From IMG/VR virus record IMGVR_UViG_3300021425_000242, positions 1-20,343 of that record: a stretch of DNA of 20,343 nucleotides; one strand, written 5' to 3'. The position numbers and the translations under genes are program-made. Origin of the DNA: a virus. Below are positions 6,065 to 15,389 of the stretch, one piece after another (position 1 is the first letter of the stretch; each line of letters begins with the position of its first letter). The notes beneath the pieces are model-generated. The model was not told the origin of the DNA. It did not search any database and saw only the letters and a program-made list of their open reading frames with translations.

Positions 6065-6886
6065 TTATTTAGGTAATTGCTCGCCGTTGTCATCCATGTT
6101 GTATAAGAATTCATGATATAATCCCATACTGTGATCAGCAAAACCATCAATTAAATTAAAAGATTTAAGTGCCATCCAATGTCCTCTACATTTGTCTTTA
6201 AAACGTTGAAGCCATGTTGCTGGTCTTATATTACCATATGTATTAATATACCTTAATACGCCACCGTGTTTAAAACATAAGAATGAAGGTGGTACTGCCG
6301 TTACAGCATCATTATTGTTTCTATATCTATAATATTTAATACCATCTAATGCTGATAGGAACCCTTTAGTGCCAACTCTTGGTTGACCAAAAGTATGTAG
6401 TCCGCCTGATACTCCTAAAGGACAAGTATTTAATTCAGCCGCAACTAATACTGCCATTGCTCCACCTAAACTGTGACCTGTAATCCATAAAGTTTTTGTT
6501 TGCTTTTTATCATGTTTTTTAAGAGCATCGTATATACCAGGCATAACTTTTTTGTATTCTGCATAGAACCCTCTATGTACTCTTCCTGATACATGATGCT
6601 TTACTGGAAACATTTTTAAGTCTGCTAGTATATCATTAATTTGTGTTGGCTCTGTACCTCTACATGCAATAAGTACATCATCTTTATCACTCATTACATA
6701 AGCCTGAGCTCCATCTACATCAATAAATGTTGGTGGTAAAGGTTTATTTAAGAATTTTTTAAGCGGTGATAAATCTTTTATTCCAGGCCTTGCCTTTAAT
6801 AAATCTTCTGGTGATTGATAACATTGGTGAGCATACATACTCAACAACAACCCGCGATCGCGATACGACATATCTTTAATTGACAT
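6065..6886 (-). CDS. Class 3 lipase (alpha/beta hydrolase)
   Basis: This 273-residue protein is a class 3 (Rhizomucor-type) lipase with the full catalytic triad. The nucleophile is S139 in GHSLGGA (137-143), the acid is D193 in YRNNNDAVTAVPP, and the His is H252 in DHSMGLY. Other family marks are CRGTEP near the oxyanion site (75-80), RVHRGFYAEY (102-111) and HTFGQPRVG (164-172). It hydrolyses acyl esters of glycerolipids or phospholipids. There is no signal peptide, so it would act in the cytoplasm, at the inner membrane or from the virion. A strong AAGGAGT ribosome site and a GATAAATA motif indicate late expression. Co-translated with the small membrane protein, it may help membrane breakdown at lysis or modify envelope lipid at entry; both are inference. 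Confidence 0.9.
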   Translation of the reverse strand: MSIKDMSYRDRGLLLSMYAHQCYQSPEDLLKARPGIKDLSPLKKFLNKPLPPTFIDVDGAQAYVMSDKDDVLIACRGTEPTQINDILADLKMFPVKHHVSGRVHRGFYAEYKKVMPGIYDALKKHDKKQTKTLWITGHSLGGAMAVLVAAELNTCPLGVSGGLHTFGQPRVGTKGFLSALDGIKYYRYRNNNDAVTAVPPSFLCFKHGGVLRYINTYGNIRPATWLQRFKDKCRGHWMALKSFNLIDGFADHSMGLYHEFLYNMDDNGEQLPK

Positions 6887-6916: not shown

Positions 6917-6922
6917 TAGTAG

Positions 6923-6930
6923 TATTTATC
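6923..6930 (-). promoter_or_regulatory. Late promoter motif GATAAATA
   Basis: Minus-strand GATAAATA followed by CTA, 37 bp before the lipase ATG, at the usual distance for this set of genes. Confidence 0.6.
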
Positions 6931-8677: not shown

Positions 8678-8817
8678 TATTTTCCTTTGTCTTTATACTT
8701 CGCTTTGCGAGGTATAATTTTAGTTTTATCTTTTTGCACTTTATGTCCGTAAGGCGTGTCATGAGTAAACAACTCAAGATGCGATCTTGTTGTTGGTGTC
8801 TTAATTTTCTTCGACAT
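8677..8817 (-). CDS. Small basic hypothetical protein (46 aa)
   Basis: A 46-residue frame from ATG 8817 to TAA 8677-8679, beginning [20 protein letters not shown]. It is very basic, with Lys/Arg clusters at both ends and no hydrophobic segment, which suggests nucleic-acid or ribosome contact, although no family is recognised. The start lies inside the last codons of the ferredoxin gene (17 bp overlap) with a GGTGAG ribosome site. Its stop overlaps the next gene as TAATG. Tight coupling on both sides supports it as real. Confidence 0.7.
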
Positions 8818-9136
8818 GTTTCTCACCTATTGCTATTGCCTCTTCTGTACTGTATGGACTTTCGTGTGCCATTGGTTCTTTAGTTTCTGCTATGTTAGGC
8901 CATATTTCAGACATCTTTGCATTTATTTCTATAAAAGGAATCTGATCTGTAGGTAACTCATCATCACTCCATATTGCTTCTACTGGGCATTCTGGTTCAC
9001 ACAATGCACAATCTATACACTCATCAGGATTAATCACTAGCATATCAGGTCCTTCATAGAAGCAGTCTACAGGACATACCTCTACACATTTTGTATCTTT
9101 ACATCCGACACATGGACTGCCTACTACGAAACTCAT
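8801..9136 (-). CDS. fdxA: 7Fe ferredoxin, FdxA-like ([3Fe-4S][4Fe-4S])
   Basis: A 111-residue low-potential electron carrier closely resembling Azotobacter-type 7Fe ferredoxins. Nine Cys sit at 9, 12, 17, 21, 25, 40, 43, 46 and 50, in the patterns C-x2-C-x4-C-x3-CP and C-x2-C-x2-C-x3-CP. By analogy with that family, C9, C17 and C50 hold the [3Fe-4S] cluster and C21, C40, C43 and C46 hold the [4Fe-4S] cluster. The family phrases [12 protein letters not shown] and [14 protein letters not shown] are intact, as is the longer C-terminal part (IWPNI). A consensus sigma70 promoter lies directly upstream, suggesting early expression. Possible partners are radical SAM enzymes or host reductases and oxygenases. 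Such a gene is expected in proteobacteria; in a phage it is probably acquired from a host. Confidence 0.93.
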
Positions 9137-10061: not shown

Positions 10062-11156
10062 TTAGAAATCAAAGGTATATCTGTTTATACATTCTAGTTC
10101 ATTCTCTCTCACATAAGTTAGAAAATCCTTGTAAACTTGTTGTGCATCTAAAGAATATTTTATATTTCGATTAAATGGAGTCTTAGATTTTTGATCATTT
10201 CTTTGAAAATTAAATCCATCATGTTCTAATAATCTAAAGTTAATGGAATTTTTATTTTGTGCCATTTGTGGTCTTCTATACAATATATCATATTGGTTAT
10301 AGATACCTGATTCCTGAGCTAAAATCTTTTTCAAAGTTTCAAACCCTGTTGTTTCTGTTCGTTGAGGGATAAGATCAGGTATAATGTTTTTATAATATTG
10401 ATACTTGTATTCGTAAATGTCTTTTCCGTAAGCACTATTACCTACTGATTCTTCAGCATATATTTTTTTATTTTTTAATACATCTAAATTATTTTCAAAT
10501 GATTTATAAACCGCTTCAGGACTATGGTAGTAAATATCTCTTAGGCATTCTACACCTATACTCTTACAAAAAATATAATAAGGTGCCATTATGTCTTGGA
10601 AGAACCGTTCCCCCGCCATTATTAATTTATTATTAGTAAATTTTATACTTTTGTCATTTTTAATAATTGGAGGATCACCACCCATTAATATATGATCTAT
10701 GCCAAATTTTTTCTTTAATAATTCTATAAAGTATAGATGAACAGATATCTGAGGACTGCCATTAAGATAATTTGCACCATACTTGTAATGCATAAGGTTA
10801 TTATAAAAATTTTCTAAATCGATATCAATAATATGATGTTTTATTTTATGTTTTTTAGTAATTTGTTCAGCCAAATAAACATCTTCCACATTTAAAATTA
10901 CACCTTTCCATATTGATCTGTATGTAAAAGCAGTAACATTTTTATTTAACTCTAAACAGTACATCAAAGAAAATTGGCTGTCGATGCCACCACTTAAACA
11001 TAAATTAATGTCTGTTTTATTACACAGTAATTCAGATATACATTCCATTAAAGACTTATCTGTTTTAGTTGCATTAATTTTACAAAAATGCTCAATAGAA
11101 AAATCCATTTGTATTCCTGGAGGGTCACCTAATTCTATGTAATAATCTTTGCTCAT
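10062..11156 (-). CDS. Asparagine-synthase-like ATP pyrophosphatase
   Basis: A 364-residue protein with the PP-loop of the asparagine synthase C-terminal domain, SGGIDS at 55-60 within INLCLSGGIDSQFSLMYCLE. A second family feature is SPQISVHLYFIE (134-145), followed by ILMGGDPP (156-163) at the place of the usual GGDE-type loop. The N-terminal glutaminase domain with Cys2 is absent, so any amidation would use free ammonia or another amine. The PP-loop adenylates a carboxylate for amide formation in asparagine synthase, beta-lactam synthetase and lasso-peptide cyclase, so the product need not be asparagine. The C-terminal 200 residues are unfamiliar. The gene appears more AT-rich than its neighbours. 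No ribosome site is visible before ATG 11156. It stands back to back with the subtilase. Confidence 0.78.
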   Translation of the reverse strand: MSKDYYIELGDPPGIQMDFSIEHFCKINATKTDKSLMECISELLCNKTDINLCLSGGIDSQFSLMYCLELNKNVTAFTYRSIWKGVILNVEDVYLAEQITKKHKIKHHIIDIDLENFYNNLMHYKYGANYLNGSPQISVHLYFIELLKKKFGIDHILMGGDPPIIKNDKSIKFTNNKLIMAGERFFQDIMAPYYIFCKSIGVECLRDIYYHSPEAVYKSFENNLDVLKNKKIYAEESVGNSAYGKDIYEYKYQYYKNIIPDLIPQRTETTGFETLKKILAQESGIYNQYDILYRRPQMAQNKNSINFRLLEHDGFNFQRNDQKSKTPFNRNIKYSLDAQQVYKDFLTYVRENELECINRYTFDF

Positions 11157-11182
11157 ATATATTTTATATTATTGTAAAAAAT

Positions 11183-11203
11183 GATAAATACATTGTATAA
11201 ATA
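11183..11203 (+). promoter_or_regulatory. Tandem late promoter motifs before the subtilase
   Basis: Plus-strand GATAAATA (11183-11190) and TATAAATA (11196-11203) lie 13 bp apart, 49 and 36 bp before the subtilase ATG. Both match the late motif. No such motif is seen on the minus strand for the divergent asparagine-synthase-like gene. Confidence 0.6.
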
Positions 11204-11238
11204 TAGTTATCATGAAATTTTAATTAGGAGTTCACATA

Positions 11239-12756
11239 ATGGCAACATATATCGTAGGAATGGATCCAGATACACATGCTGATGATACAGCGGCAAAAAA
11301 TGCCATCACATCTGCAGGTGGCACAGTAACGAAAACATATAGTTTTCCTTTAACATATAAAATAGATTGTACAGCAGAACAACTTAGTGCAATGACTGGT
11401 GTAGCAACATCAGAAGGGGCAGACGCAGAAGCCGTTTTAACTCCTGCATTTAACGTAGATCATTTAAAGATTTTATCTAATGACATAGGTACTACAACTG
11501 CTAATTATAATCCAATAAGTACTGCTGAAGGTGAACATCTTTACTTAGTAGATACTGGTATTAATACAACCCATAATGAATTTACAGGCGCAACTGTTAA
11601 TAACCTTTATACTGCGTTTGGAACTGATTTTTCAGATACAGCAGGACATGGTACGGCAATGGCTAGTTTGATAGTAGGCCAAAATATAGGTACTGCCAAA
11701 GATGCAACTTTACATAATGTAAAAGTAATGAACTCTAATCCATACACAGGAACAATTGGTGCAATGGTAGATGCTTTAGAAGAAATTTTAGTACATCACA
11801 ATGCTAATACACCAGCACAAACTAAAGTTGTTATTTGTTGTTGGACTACTGGCAAAAATCAATTACTTGATATAAAATTACAGCAACTTGAAGACAATAA
11901 TATGATTGTTGTTTGTTCAGCAGGTAATGATGCTAATGATGTAGACTTTTATTCACCAGCAGGTTTAGACCAAGTAATGACCGTAGGCGGACATAATGCT
12001 AGTGGTGTTGTTGGATATTTTTCAGGTGGTAGTACTAATGGTAGTAACTTAGGACCAGAAGTAGACATTTTTGGAATGTCAGATGACGTTTCCATAGTTG
12101 ATGTTTCAAATAATACAGATTACACAACATCAGACGGAACATCAGTTGCTACGGCTCAGATAGCAGGATTAGTTGCACAATATATTGATTTATATCCAAG
12201 TGCAGATGCTAGAACAATTAAATCGTATGTAACTGCTGAAGGTTCAGTTTTAGGTAGAGGTGGTGCAATTACTTTTGATTCAGGACTTATAACTGATACA
12301 GCACAAGAGGAATATCATTTACAAAAAGTTATAGGCGTAAGTCCTCAAATAGGCGACTTATCATTAGCGGCTAAGCCTTCAGGTATAGCAGTTTATGTGC
12401 AGTCAGGACAATCAGCATCATCAAATATAGAAATTAACAATAGTGCAAGTAATGTTAGTGTAATGAGTTTTAGTCCAGTGCCTCCATTTGCCACGTTTGC
12501 AAATACAGGTGTAAATATCGGAACTATTGCAGTAGATACATCATCTAATATGGAACATGTTACAGTACCAGGAATATATCATTTTGCTGTAAAAGGTGAA
12601 GTAGGTGGTTCTATATTAGTTGAAGAATATTCAATTGGTATTTATAATGCAGATGTTTCTGAATTAGATTCATCTCCAGAGTTTTATTATGACTCAGATG
12701 GTGTTGGAGCAGAAGCATATGACCAAGTTGTAAATTTTAATGCTACAAAAGAATAA
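11239..12756 (+). CDS. Subtilisin-like serine protease with I9-type propeptide
   Basis: A 505-residue S8 family protease. The triad is D105 (VDTGI), H137 (GHGTA) and S302 (DGTSVA), with oxyanion N230 in CSAGN. Residues about 1-75 look like an inhibitor I9 propeptide (MATYIVGMDP and a terminal KIDCTAEQL strand), which normally chaperones folding and is then cut off. Residues about 360-505 form a beta-rich domain of unknown role, perhaps for virion attachment. No signal peptide is present, so it stays in the cell or goes into particles. A strong TTAGGAG ribosome site and tandem late promoters precede it, and a rho-independent terminator follows. It could mature virion proteins or process a peptide. 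Together with the divergent ATP pyrophosphatase and the radical SAM genes nearby it suggests a modification module. Confidence 0.92.
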   Translation: MATYIVGMDPDTHADDTAAKNAITSAGGTVTKTYSFPLTYKIDCTAEQLSAMTGVATSEGADAEAVLTPAFNVDHLKILSNDIGTTTANYNPISTAEGEHLYLVDTGINTTHNEFTGATVNNLYTAFGTDFSDTAGHGTAMASLIVGQNIGTAKDATLHNVKVMNSNPYTGTIGAMVDALEEILVHHNANTPAQTKVVICCWTTGKNQLLDIKLQQLEDNNMIVVCSAGNDANDVDFYSPAGLDQVMTVGGHNASGVVGYFSGGSTNGSNLGPEVDIFGMSDDVSIVDVSNNTDYTTSDGTSVATAQIAGLVAQYIDLYPSADARTIKSYVTAEGSVLGRGGAITFDSGLITDTAQEEYHLQKVIGVSPQIGDLSLAAKPSGIAVYVQSGQSASSNIEINNSASNVSVMSFSPVPPFATFANTGVNIGTIAVDTSSNMEHVTVPGIYHFAVKGEVGGSILVEEYSIGIYNADVSELDSSPEFYYDSDGVGAEAYDQVVNFNATKE

Positions 12757-12771
12757 TATAACACAAATTTT

Positions 12772-12802
12772 AAAGCCAGTTCATAGTAACTGGCTTTTTT
12801 TT
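12772..12802 (+). terminator. Rho-independent terminator after the subtilase
   Basis: AAAGCCAGTT and AACTGGCTTT form a 10 bp stem around a short loop, followed by a run of eight Ts (12795-12802, partly in the stem). It lies 16 bp after the subtilase stop, so the next plus-strand gene needs its own promoter. Confidence 0.88.
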
Positions 12803-12813
12803 GACTAGTAAAT

Positions 12814-13749
12814 ATGTATATGAATAAAGTTTTTTTAGACGTTACAACAAAGAATTGCTTGTTCAATAGTATTGAGCCACAAGGAAGTTATTTATTTCAT
12901 AGATTCGGTAAAAGAGTTATTCCAGAAGAGCATTTAGATATAGATCTTATTACAAATTATATTGATGAGGAAAATATACAACAAATTATTTTAGAAAGTG
13001 TTTTTGGAGACCCTTTAGAATACAAGTATATAGAAGAACTGTTTAAATACTGTAAAGAAAATACTATAGATATTGTAATTGTATGTAATGGGTACTCAGA
13101 TAATTTAAAATTATTAGAGGAATATAATGCTTATGTTTTATTTAAAATATACGGTTTAAATAAGTCTTTTGATATTATAATGCCTGGATATAATACTTAT
13201 ACACTTATTAATAATCTTAAATATTGTGATAAAATAATATATCATCTATATGAACAAAACCTGTGTGATGTAGAACATGTTTACAAAACAGGTAAAGAAA
13301 TAGAATTTGTTAAAGGTCCATTAGTACATTCAAATATTAATCATATTTTTACATCTGGTGGTGAATGGTTATATGATATCAATGGTCTGGATAATTTAGA
13401 TATAAAAAACTTAGATTATGAATCATTATTACCATTTAAAAATATTAAAATAAATTTAAATAAAACAATGAAGGGATATCATTTACTAAAAAACTATGTA
13501 ATGCCTATAAAGGGTCAAAGTATATTAGACACTAATGTATATAATATAGAATATAAAGAAGATTATTCTAAACAAATATCAATATCATATAAAGGACATA
13601 TTTTTAATACTATAGAAGAAAGAAATGCAGTATCTAATGCATATATACCTGATTGGAGGGTAGACTTATTTGGTACAAATATTGGATACCATAATTCAAT
13701 TTTGTCTATGCTTAGTAAATTTGCAAATAATAAAAAAATATCAATCTAG
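12814..13749 (+). CDS. Radical-SAM-like protein lacking the Cys motif (311 aa)
   Basis: I recognise this only by its fold pattern. The segment IILESVFGDPLEYKYIEELFKYC (58-80), then IVIVCNGYSD (87-96), resembles the GEP and TNG strands of radical SAM TIM barrels, but no CxxxCxxC is present; the only N-terminal Cys is C15. It may be an inactive partner of such an enzyme, or an unrelated barrel. The C-terminal 150 residues are unknown. The start may be ATG 12814 or ATG 12820; no ribosome site is seen, and AGTAAATA just upstream suggests a leaderless late mRNA. The gene is very AT-rich, more so than the subtilase, as seen for the asparagine-synthase-like gene. Its stop overlaps the convergent radical SAM gene by 9 bp. 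Confidence 0.6.
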   Translation: MYMNKVFLDVTTKNCLFNSIEPQGSYLFHRFGKRVIPEEHLDIDLITNYIDEENIQQIILESVFGDPLEYKYIEELFKYCKENTIDIVIVCNGYSDNLKLLEEYNAYVLFKIYGLNKSFDIIMPGYNTYTLINNLKYCDKIIYHLYEQNLCDVEHVYKTGKEIEFVKGPLVHSNINHIFTSGGEWLYDINGLDNLDIKNLDYESLLPFKNIKINLNKTMKGYHLLKNYVMPIKGQSILDTNVYNIEYKEDYSKQISISYKGHIFNTIEERNAVSNAYIPDWRVDLFGTNIGYHNSILSMLSKFANNKKISI

Positions 13750-14775
13750 AGTTTTTGTTATAGATATATCACTTATGTTATTACAAAATGCATAAGGACA
13801 TGTAGTTTTACTTTGCGGTAAATTCCAATTAGTATCTGATATATTTCCAAAGTTTACAGCACCACACCAACTACTATACATGTCACCACTAGCATCTATG
13901 TTTAAACTTTCAAAACCCAAATGACATCGCATACCTTGAAAACTGTTTAGTTTTTTATCTATTATCTGATGACTTTGAACATACTCAGCAGTACCATCAT
14001 CATACAAGAATTCTGTCATCCAAGCATTTGGATCAGGCTTAGGCTCTGGAAATTCTTCTGCATCTGGTATATTTAACTTTTCTCTTTCTGGTATAATTTG
14101 CTGTATAATGCCTGGTTTCTTTAACACTTCTTGCTCTTCTGTAGTGTATTGCCAATATGTTTCCTGCTTGTTCTGGCGTCCTAAGAGCTTCTTATACATG
14201 GTTTTAACACATATACTTACCATATTGTAATCATTATGTTTACAACCTTTAAATAAATCACGCAATTCCTCTGCGAATTCGCCCAATTTGAGCACGTCTC
14301 CGCCTATTCCAGCGATGTTTATGTCAATATGTACATAATCCTTAATTTCGTTTATAACTGCTTTAAAATGCTCGGAATCTTGGGATTGGGGATGGTAAGT
14401 TAGAATTACCTTATCCATATAGTGTTTTGCTTTACTCCACCAATTAGTTGTTCTACTACCATTTGTGTATACAATACTAGTACTATTTTGCTCACTTATT
14501 GTTTTTATAATGTCTTCAAAGCCTGGTATAACAGTGACTTCTCCTCCTATTAATTCATACTCTGTCTGTTTGTCTAATGCTCTATAATGCGAAGAAAGAC
14601 GCGATATTGCTTCTATATACTGTTGTTTATTTAACCAAGGCTTAGAACCGTCATGTAATATAGGAGGACAATATTCACATTCATAATTACATGAATTACC
14701 CATGTTCCATTGTATTCTTATTACATTGTTAGTGTTCCTGGCGTGTGGGCCACGTACAGAAACGAGACTAGGCAT
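13741..14775 (-). CDS. Radical SAM protein with C-terminal Cys cluster region
   Basis: A 344-residue radical SAM enzyme. C29-x3-C33-x2-C36 (SCNYECEYCP) binds the [4Fe-4S] cluster that cleaves S-adenosylmethionine, and further barrel marks are ELIGGEVTV (58-66) and IVYTNGSR. The C-terminal part has four more Cys (284, 304, 326, 331) in a SPASM/Twitch-like layout that may hold an auxiliary cluster, as in peptide- and protein-modifying members. It requires a reductant such as flavodoxin or ferredoxin. The ATG at 14775 overlaps the stop of the PAAR gene (TAATG), so the two are translated together, which hints that the spike or another virion protein may be a substrate. Convergent with the cluster-less radical-SAM-like gene. 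The reaction is unknown. Confidence 0.85.
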   Translation of the reverse strand: MPSLVSVRGPHARNTNNVIRIQWNMGNSCNYECEYCPPILHDGSKPWLNKQQYIEAISRLSSHYRALDKQTEYELIGGEVTVIPGFEDIIKTISEQNSTSIVYTNGSRTTNWWSKAKHYMDKVILTYHPQSQDSEHFKAVINEIKDYVHIDINIAGIGGDVLKLGEFAEELRDLFKGCKHNDYNMVSICVKTMYKKLLGRQNKQETYWQYTTEEQEVLKKPGIIQQIIPEREKLNIPDAEEFPEPKPDPNAWMTEFLYDDGTAEYVQSHQIIDKKLNSFQGMRCHLGFESLNIDASGDMYSSWCGAVNFGNISDTNWNLPQSKTTCPYAFCNNISDISITKTLD

Positions 14776-15047
14776 TATAAGCCTACATTGACAGTTAGAG
14801 CCCCCATAGTAACAGAATGAGCACAGGTGGCCATTGAACCTACCATTGCTACTGGTTGTCCTTCAGCAAATACTGTTGTAGAGCATCCTCCAACAATAGC
14901 AGGAGAAATATGTGGTGCTTCTCCATGCGTAGATACCATATCGCCTAATGTTGCAATAGGCAACCCTTCTACTTTAACTGTCATGACTTTGGTTGTTGTG
15001 ATAACACCAGTTCCTACCAGACTCATCTTTTTTGCTACTTGTGGCAT
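14775..15047 (-). CDS. PAAR-domain spike tip protein
   Basis: A 90-residue PAAR protein, a small beta-rich cone that caps the tail spike of contractile phages and type VI secretion (like T4 gp5.4). Typical phrases are GLPIATLGD (28-36), VGGCSTTVFAEGQPVAMVGS (52-71) and ATCAHSVTMGA (73-83). Candidate zinc ligands are H41, H46, C75 and H77. Length matches a complete single-domain PAAR. No Shine-Dalgarno is seen before ATG 15047; instead the late-type motif GATAAATA (15053-15060) ends five bases from the start, so a leaderless late mRNA is possible. It is followed directly by the radical SAM gene. Confidence 0.88.
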   Translation of the reverse strand: MPQVAKKMSLVGTGVITTTKVMTVKVEGLPIATLGDMVSTHGEAPHISPAIVGGCSTTVFAEGQPVAMVGSMATCAHSVTMGALTVNVGL

Positions 15048-15052
15048 AGTAT

Positions 15053-15060
15053 TATTTATC
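15053..15060 (-). promoter_or_regulatory. Late promoter motif GATAAATA before PAAR
   Basis: Minus-strand GATAAATA ending five bases before the PAAR ATG. A start site about six bases downstream would fall at or near the ATG, giving a leaderless mRNA. Confidence 0.45.
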
Positions 15061-15068
15061 TTTAAAGA

Positions 15069-15389
15069 CTATGTGTTTTTATTGTCTCTATCTGAAATAA
15101 ATTGCAAATAGTCGTCTGATGATGTTCCTGCATCTGCTGGCCCAACTGATAAATATTGTTCTCTTAAAATAAATGTTTCTTTAGAGTGACTTGTAAGAGT
15201 ATATGGTACAACTGCTACTGCCTGCTCTTCTTCTATAGAATTAGTAACTACTACTAATTGAGGGTTTTGTAATGTTAAATTTTCTGTTTTTTCATCGAAA
15301 CCCATTAATGTTGCTATAATTTCTATTCCAGCAGTTGTTTTTATAGAAACTACTTTACCTAGATTTTCTTTTAATATTTCCGCGTACAT
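15069..15389 (-). CDS. Sm/LSm-like phage protein
   Basis: A 106-residue protein with the Sm fold signature: GKVVSIKTTAGIEIIATLMGFDEKTENLTL, about residues 11-40, corresponds to the strand-turn pattern of Sm1, followed by a second half with the VVVTNSIEEEQ and VPYTLTS strands. A crystal structure of an Sm-like protein of putative cyanophage origin from marine DNA is known, and this gene seems to be of that kind. Sm rings bind RNA in cells; here an RNA or virion role is open. It starts at ATG 15389, sharing one base with the NrdB stop, so it is made together with the reductase. The acidic C-terminal tail (about 85-106) may be flexible. Confidence 0.75.
   Translation of the reverse strand: MYAEILKENLGKVVSIKTTAGIEIIATLMGFDEKTENLTLQNPQLVVVTNSIEEEQAVAVVPYTLTSHSKETFILREQYLSVGPADAGTSSDDYLQFISDRDNKNT

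Follow-up and report, generated by a model that had tools for sequence, protein, structure and literature searches.

The stretch of DNA analysed here (the window) is the complete IMG/VR virus record IMGVR_UViG_3300021425_000242, 20,343 bases in length, and the system in question is a cluster of four genes at positions 10,062 to 14,775 together with the adjoining gene for a PAAR tail-spike-tip protein. A PP-loop ATPase/ligase of 364 amino acids (aa) is encoded on the minus strand (10062–11156), followed on the plus strand by an S8 subtilase (11239–12756, 505 aa) and by a protein with the predicted fold of radical S-adenosylmethionine (SAM) enzymes that lacks their CxxxCxxC motif, hereafter SAM-like (12814–13749, 311 aa). 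The fourth gene encodes a true radical SAM enzyme (13741–14775, minus strand, 344 aa) and, with the PP-loop gene, brackets the plus-strand pair. The 3’ ends of the radical SAM and SAM-like genes overlap, the gaps within the block of SAM-like, S8 and PP-loop genes (the trio) are 57 and 82 nt, and the end of the PAAR gene (14775–15047, minus strand, 90 aa, Pfam 2.8e-9) shares one base with the radical SAM start (TAATG).

A preliminary description of this DNA, made from the letters alone, had placed four open reading frames (ORFs) at these positions and had named the S8 and SAM-like genes as the only full-length ones on the plus strand. Both statements hold, the remaining plus-strand ORFs being at most 107 aa, and the domain content assigned to each of the four was likewise recovered. 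Ratios of non-synonymous to synonymous divergence (dN/dS) of 0.02–0.30 across all four indicate real genes under purifying selection. Pfam assigns Peptidase_S8 clearly (1e-25), Radical_SAM weakly for both radical-SAM-type proteins and QueC/Asn_synthase weakly for the PP-loop protein, and in PHROGs the matches are to radical SAM families only.

A trio of genes conserved and exchanged as one block

At least 93 relatives of the radical SAM enzyme were found in viral contigs. The IMG/VR contigs are fragmentary and overlap in part, and a single contig can supply more than one locus (loci are numbered with the prefix L); where stated, counts refer to distinct proteins. Gene calling together with profile searches recovered a recurrent order over the loci, nrdA-nrdB-LSM-PAAR-radical SAM(+)-SAM-like(−)-S8(−)-PP-loop(+), and 41 of the 43 IMG/VR radical SAM loci with at least 4 kb beyond the radical SAM gene carry all four genes with this order and these orientations. 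Only L073 and L100, which are closely related to one another, depart from it. More distant loci were reached by profile scans of IMG/VR with SAM-like and PP-loop alignments. Single-sequence scans of IMG/VR (no PP-loop loci, four SAM-like loci) had suggested uniqueness, which was wrong: they were nearly empty because both proteins change too quickly to be caught by exact peptide patterns, and the alignment-based scans recovered dozens of loci.

Many of these loci have the order LSM-PAAR-SAM-like-S8-PP-loop with no radical SAM gene (among them L174-L182, L207-L210, L214, L227, L230, L231, L233-L242 and L254-L262). Counted by distinct proteins with enough flanking sequence, SAM-like stands beside S8 and PP-loop in 36 of 36 cases, and around distinct PP-loop loci S8 was found in 65 of 65, SAM-like in 63 and radical SAM in 50. 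Profile searches of the long records of radical-SAM-less loci, fragments of up to 102 kb, found no radical SAM gene elsewhere in them. At three loci (L230, L257 and L258) the SAM-like and PAAR genes are swapped and inverted, yet the genes remain clustered, which excludes simple positional inertia for the trio. The obligate unit is SAM-like, S8 and PP-loop next to PAAR, with the radical SAM enzyme as an optional, slow-evolving companion. The proposal of the preliminary description that the genes form a functional set is thus supported by very strong co-conservation, and the independent occurrence in related phages that would have spoken against it was not observed. The set comprises three genes rather than four, given that the radical SAM gene is missing from many trio loci and lies outside the exchanged block described below.

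Among phage pairs with NrdB 90–98% identical, median identity was 81% for radical SAM, 60% for S8, 50% for PP-loop and 42% for SAM-like. Partial Mantel correlations within the trio, given radical SAM and NrdB and calculated on pairwise distances that are non-independent, were 0.50, 0.57 and 0.47 (0 of 1000 permutations). The corresponding values between PAAR and the trio were only 0.04–0.17, and those of the fibre and c10–c12 controls were mostly close to zero. An exploratory division of S8 into domains gave partial values with SAM-like divergence of 0.42 for the C-terminal domain, 0.21 for the catalytic domain and −0.16 for the pro domain.

Direct evidence of exchange came from pairs of closely related loci. 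Between L063 and L066 the synonymous divergence (dS) of the fibre, nrdA, nrdB, LSM and radical SAM genes is 0.03–0.18, against 2.2 for SAM-like, 1.6 for S8 and 2.1 for PP-loop; nucleotide identity drops exactly at the radical SAM 3’ end (0.97 before, 0.75 after) and rises again immediately beyond the PP-loop gene. In L070 and L062, too, only the trio shows the increase (dS 1.0–2.2, against 0.41 for PAAR), with the same identity breakpoints. The converse is seen in L054 and L062, where the trio is near-identical while radical SAM (dS 0.5), LSM and PAAR differ; here the near-identical stretch extends downstream past the trio. Together, the dS jumps and breakpoints show that the trio moves between phages as a single cassette without PAAR or radical SAM. 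By genomics, SAM-like, S8 and PP-loop thus form a co-adapted functional unit that T4-type phages exchange, and its members very probably work jointly on one task.

A six-frame search placed PAAR itself next to the unit in every one of 83 loci, the rearranged L073, L230 and L257 among them, and the single PAAR match of a 250-kb relative is the one beside the unit. The invariant residues of PAAR are of the Zn-site type only. The same 250-kb relative encodes a gp23 that shares 69% identity with the Pseudomonas phage PA5oct major head protein, which identifies the clade as T4-type; gp23 was present in one of 18 linked records, most of which are fragments. The combination had been thought unusual in a T4-like phage, and is instead common among T4-type phages that are uncultured. 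A tblastn search of 50,697 deposited phage records found no relatives of the trio or of the radical SAM enzyme, generic subtilases for S8 aside. Pattern scans of 84,980 bacterial and archaeal GTDB genomes returned no relative either, although scans with short conserved peptides can miss relatives, and a search of the literature found no published description of the gene combination.

Conserved motifs and predicted folds

The catalytic triad and oxyanion asparagine of the S8 protein (D105, H137, N230 and S302) are kept in 71 of 71 relatives. Membership of peptidase family S8 is clear by sequence and proteolytic activity is predicted. Alignment of the S8 profile to a solved subtilisin-like chain (3afg) begins at position 10, which supports a propeptide. 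This propeptide-like N-terminal domain is followed by the catalytic domain and a beta-rich C-terminal domain without a Pfam name, and the start of the protein is not signal-peptide-like. The chain ends in a hypervariable tail of very variable length, whose final two residues nearly always include lysine (59 of 65 unique tails, compared with 126 of 407 for background ORFs; Fisher 1e-20). An explanation of the terminal lysine codon as merely the ribosome site of the SAM-like gene was rejected, as lysine is kept at 142 of the 145 junctions whose gap is at least 25 nt; it is missing mainly where the S8–SAM-like gap is short (junction counts are not de-duplicated).

The AlphaFold2 model of the SAM-like protein (predicted local distance difference test score, pLDDT, 92.7) has a radical SAM barrel that superposes on MoaA with Z 14.4 and a root-mean-square deviation of 3.6 over 213 residues, and on SuiB with the same Z score of 14.4. 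The preliminary description had suspected a fold-like protein without CxxxCxxC; the motif is missing in all 81 sequences of the family. In its place are a DxT...QG...HRFGKR loop and a GD motif (within 12814–13749, plus strand), the conserved positions being D9, T11, Q23, the HRFGKR loop, G65-D66, N149, W185, D188, D280 and W281. Because the CxxxCxxC ligands are lost, the protein would be unable to hold the usual SAM cluster. On the evidence of the model it is a relative of the radical SAM superfamily by fold and not a working radical SAM enzyme. It is no close paralogue of the neighbouring radical SAM enzyme, an idea rejected on a profile comparison probability of 8%. The 250-kb relative also encodes two radical SAM/SPASM proteins distant from the unit, at L280 16626–17603 (minus strand, Pfam 2e-14) and L277 9667–11001 (plus strand, 7e-11); the former matches the SAM-like profile at 1e-7 and may resemble the SAM-like ancestor.

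The PP-loop protein retains SGGxDS in 66 of 68 relatives, and its AlphaFold2 model (pLDDT 89) matches asparagine-synthetase-type enzymes over its whole length (Z 12.5–14.1; 14.1 for human asparagine synthetase and 13.9 for beta-lactam synthetase). Asparagine and beta-lactam synthetase-type enzymes adenylate a carboxylate and then form an amide. An N-terminal nucleophile (Ntn) glutaminase domain is missing: SGGxDS starts at residue 55 of 364, too early to accommodate one, in agreement with the earlier assignment as an asparagine-synthase-like protein without glutaminase.

The radical SAM enzyme is intact, as had been described. C29, C33 and C36 of the CxxxCxxC motif are invariant in 75 relatives, as are four additional C-terminal cysteines (C284, C304, C326 and C331), putative Fe-S ligands of the twitch/SPASM type. 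The closest solved chain is SkfB (E 8e-4), and the protein reaches no curated family among those compared (viperin 40.6 against a cut-off of 180 bits, a further model 53.6 against 200, SkfB 17 against 300 and QueE 23.8 against 206).

Expression signals and neighbouring genes

The motif GATAAATAC is present 56 nt upstream of the S8 gene (11183–11191, plus strand), and GATAAATAA lies just upstream of PAAR, and hence of PAAR-radical SAM (15052–15060, minus strand). Across loci an exact GATAAATAC was found upstream of the fibre gene in 29 of 29 cases, S8 in 47 of 67, PAAR in 27 of 74 and the lipase in 15 of 16, where about 0.1 would be expected; upstream of nrdA, nrdB, SAM-like, radical SAM and PP-loop there were none. 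With one mismatch allowed, 66 of 73 PAAR upstream regions match TATAAATA, against 19 expected. The late promoter of T4-like cyanophages has been described as NATAAATA (PMC2984593). GATAAATAC fits this consensus, and the elements before S8 and PAAR are late-promoter-like. Between S8 and SAM-like an intrinsic-terminator-like hairpin is followed by a T run (12772–12802, plus strand); such a signal is present at 29 of 45 S8–SAM-like junctions with a gap of at least 25 nt, against 0.7 expected in shuffled sequences. In the simplest reading of these motifs, a late S8 transcript would be made in excess over SAM-like.

The window lipase (class 3, 1.6e-24; 6065–6886, minus strand) has an exact GATAAATAC at 6922–6930 on its strand and is thus probably a late gene. 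Between nrdB and PAAR lies a small Sm/LSM-like protein (15069–15389, minus strand), fast-evolving with a median identity of 58% where NrdB is 90–98% identical; its partial co-divergence with the trio is 0.10–0.26 and highest with PP-loop. A ferredoxin with Fer4 and DUF3470 matches is encoded at 8801–9136 (minus strand) and is a possible electron donor; a ferredoxin lies downstream of the unit in 14 of the 26 radical SAM loci and in one of the 16 that lack radical SAM, a difference confounded by phylogeny.

Other genes accompany the unit at particular loci. A small HExxH protein (120–152 aa; LAHELVHAKQ or HEMIHVKQ) with no Pfam match follows the PP-loop gene, often at 0–3 nt (L176-L182, L214, L230, L254-L261, L063, L066 and L069), and occurs in 11 of 16 radical-SAM-less loci against four of 26 with radical SAM. 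A c-type cytochrome gene (CAACHG; Pfam Cytochrom_C 1.6e-8) is found after PP-loop in L045, L046, L076, L084, L135, L140, L145 and L250, and an A-type iron-sulphur carrier (PF01521, 5e-10) about 300 nt beyond it in L231. Between nrdA and nrdB, L006, L007, L009 and L084 have an optional ORF of 156–161 aa that is GIY-YIG endonuclease-like by eye, a 60-aa piece of which has no Pfam match. Two adjacent ORFs at L073 6089–7680 resemble membrane fatty-acid desaturases by eye.

A proposed maturation unit, its rivals and known systems

The exchanged block contains no further ORF and excludes both PAAR and radical SAM, hence a phage-encoded client that coevolves with the trio must be one of its members. 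S8 is the best candidate, as the only member without a maturase-type fold. In the favoured joint reading, to which a probability of about 0.35 is given, S8 would be the late, main product, with SAM-like and PP-loop as its dedicated partners. S8 would be expressed late from a promoter of its own and, at many loci including the window, in excess through its own terminator, which separates SAM-like from it. The cluster-less SAM-like protein would bind S8, probably at the S8 C-terminal domain, and the PP-loop protein would use ATP to form an amide or isopeptide bond on S8, for which the lysine-ended tail is a plausible site. Matured S8 might then become part of the virion or act on it, perhaps with the PAAR tail tip as its place, and the radical SAM enzyme, where present, would supply an optional tailoring step outside the core. 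A more specific form can be offered only tentatively: in an autonomous phage system, a dedicated ATP-dependent ligase and a cluster-less, radical-SAM-derived protein with a new conserved loop would build, crosslink or activate a protease of the virion or of the late stage, and the whole enzyme–client set would pass between phages as an allelic, specificity-like cassette.

Several observations weigh against this reading. Five close relatives have read-through extensions instead of the lysine-ended tail, and the terminal lysine pattern could have a different purpose. The per-domain correlation that points to the S8 C-terminal domain is exploratory and was calculated on non-independent pairs, and the chemistry, the S8 complex and the presence in the virion are all inferred from genomics. 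At L073 4031–6126 and L100 4033–6128 the S8 triad and the PP-loop SGGxDS are both lost, the two genes overlapping by 4 nt directly after PAAR, while SAM-like is absent and an intact radical SAM gene lies about 4 kb further on. In this lineage the role of S8 and PP-loop is therefore not enzymatic, which cautions that the unit may serve in part a structural purpose. Taken further, the three folds might now be tail scaffolds or chaperones with catalysis secondary, to which the lack of a cluster in SAM-like everywhere would also conform. The intact triad and the near-universal PP-loop motif outside L073 and L100 argue that catalysis is under selection, and a purely structural or assembly role is held to be rather unlikely.

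Block exchange would also fit a host-directed late effector, the main rival and a possible one, in which S8 acts inside the cell (takeover, lysis timing or counter-defence) with SAM-like and PP-loop as specificity or regulatory partners and the exchange reflects an arms race with the host. The start of S8 without signal-peptide character, its intact triad and the fast diversification of the trio as a unit are all in keeping with such an effector, and one subtilase model of a defence library matches S8, with no match to any other partner. It leaves the constant PAAR linkage and the need for an ATP ligase unexplained, however, and the late-promoter-like motif that S8 shares with the fibre gene argues for late timing. 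The preliminary description had proposed as target a protein of the virion, perhaps the PAAR tip, and hence one that is not itself a trio member. The invariable presence of PAAR beside the unit, even after rearrangement, and its being the sole match in the 250-kb relative speak for this, but PAAR lies outside the exchanged block, its partial co-divergence with the trio falls well short of that within the trio (0.47–0.57), and its invariant residues are of the Zn-site type only; PAAR as the modified target is not supported and is held to be unlikely.

A biosynthetic pathway for a ribosomally synthesized and post-translationally modified peptide (RiPP), also raised in the preliminary description, would act on a free precursor peptide, from which S8 would remove the leader, with PP-loop as the cyclase and radical SAM as the modifying enzyme. 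The nearest solved relatives of both radical-SAM-type proteins are indeed peptide maturases (SkfB and SuiB), and S8 weakly resembles QhpE and PatA/PatG. The gaps of the block leave no space for a precursor gene, no conserved short ORF follows PP-loop, although a precursor gene may lie at a distance, and neither a RiPP recognition element (RRE) nor a transporter gene was found in the window. With radical SAM optional and scores far under the family cut-offs, such a pathway appears improbable. Neutral hitch-hiking of four unrelated cargo genes would draw on the frequent conservation of local gene order in phages; for the trio it is refuted by the rearranged loci L073, L230 and L257, where the genes are still together, and by co-divergence above that of neighbours and exchange exactly at the trio, leaving it very improbable. 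Nucleic-acid modification of the 7-deazaguanine type, in which PP-loop would take the part of QueC and radical SAM that of QueE, is nearly refuted: the weak profile matches that suggest it lie far under the cut-offs (22.5 against 150.3 bits for QueC), the PP-loop fold is closest to asparagine and beta-lactam synthetases rather than QueC, and S8 is left without explanation.

If the favoured reading is correct, these phages have a unit for protein maturation, made up of a protease, an ATP ligase and a cluster-less radical SAM protein, which is passed intact between viruses and is absent, by the searches above, from cultured phages and the 84,980 pattern-scanned genomes. The radical SAM fold would have been given a second life without its chemistry, and phages would have a new way in which a tail or a late protease is armed or assembled. 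The sharp exchange breakpoints make the partnership directly testable by mixing alleles.

Among known systems, the maturation genes of quinohemoprotein amine dehydrogenase (QHNDH) similarly join a radical SAM enzyme and an S8 protease (QhpD and QhpE) in one cassette. The window S8 scores 31 bits against the QhpE cut-off of 165, no QhpC-like small subunit is encoded in the window, and the window adds an asparagine-synthetase-like ligase and a cluster-less radical SAM protein, with radical SAM optional and S8 apparently the client. SkfB and SuiB, of sactipeptide and streptide biosynthesis, are closest in sequence and fold to the radical-SAM-type proteins, but the window has no linked precursor, SAM-like has no cluster and the radical SAM enzyme stays far below the SkfB family cut-off. 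The PP-loop protein shares its whole-length fold and SGGxDS with asparagine synthetase B, beta-lactam synthetase and carbapenam synthetase, from which it differs in lacking the glutaminase domain and in an identity of only about 10%. Phage viperin-like and STM4011 radical SAM families are the best NCBIfam/PADLOC matches of the radical SAM enzyme, at 40.6 bits for viperin against a cut-off of 180, and at 53.6 against 200; the window enzyme has extra C-terminal cysteines and no defence partner genes. The hypervariable-region cassettes of pelagimyophages (PMC7029224) are likewise variable radical SAM cassettes of marine T4-type phages; the portions of that report consulted describe radical SAM cassettes only, and its text makes no mention of protease, peptidase or asparagine.

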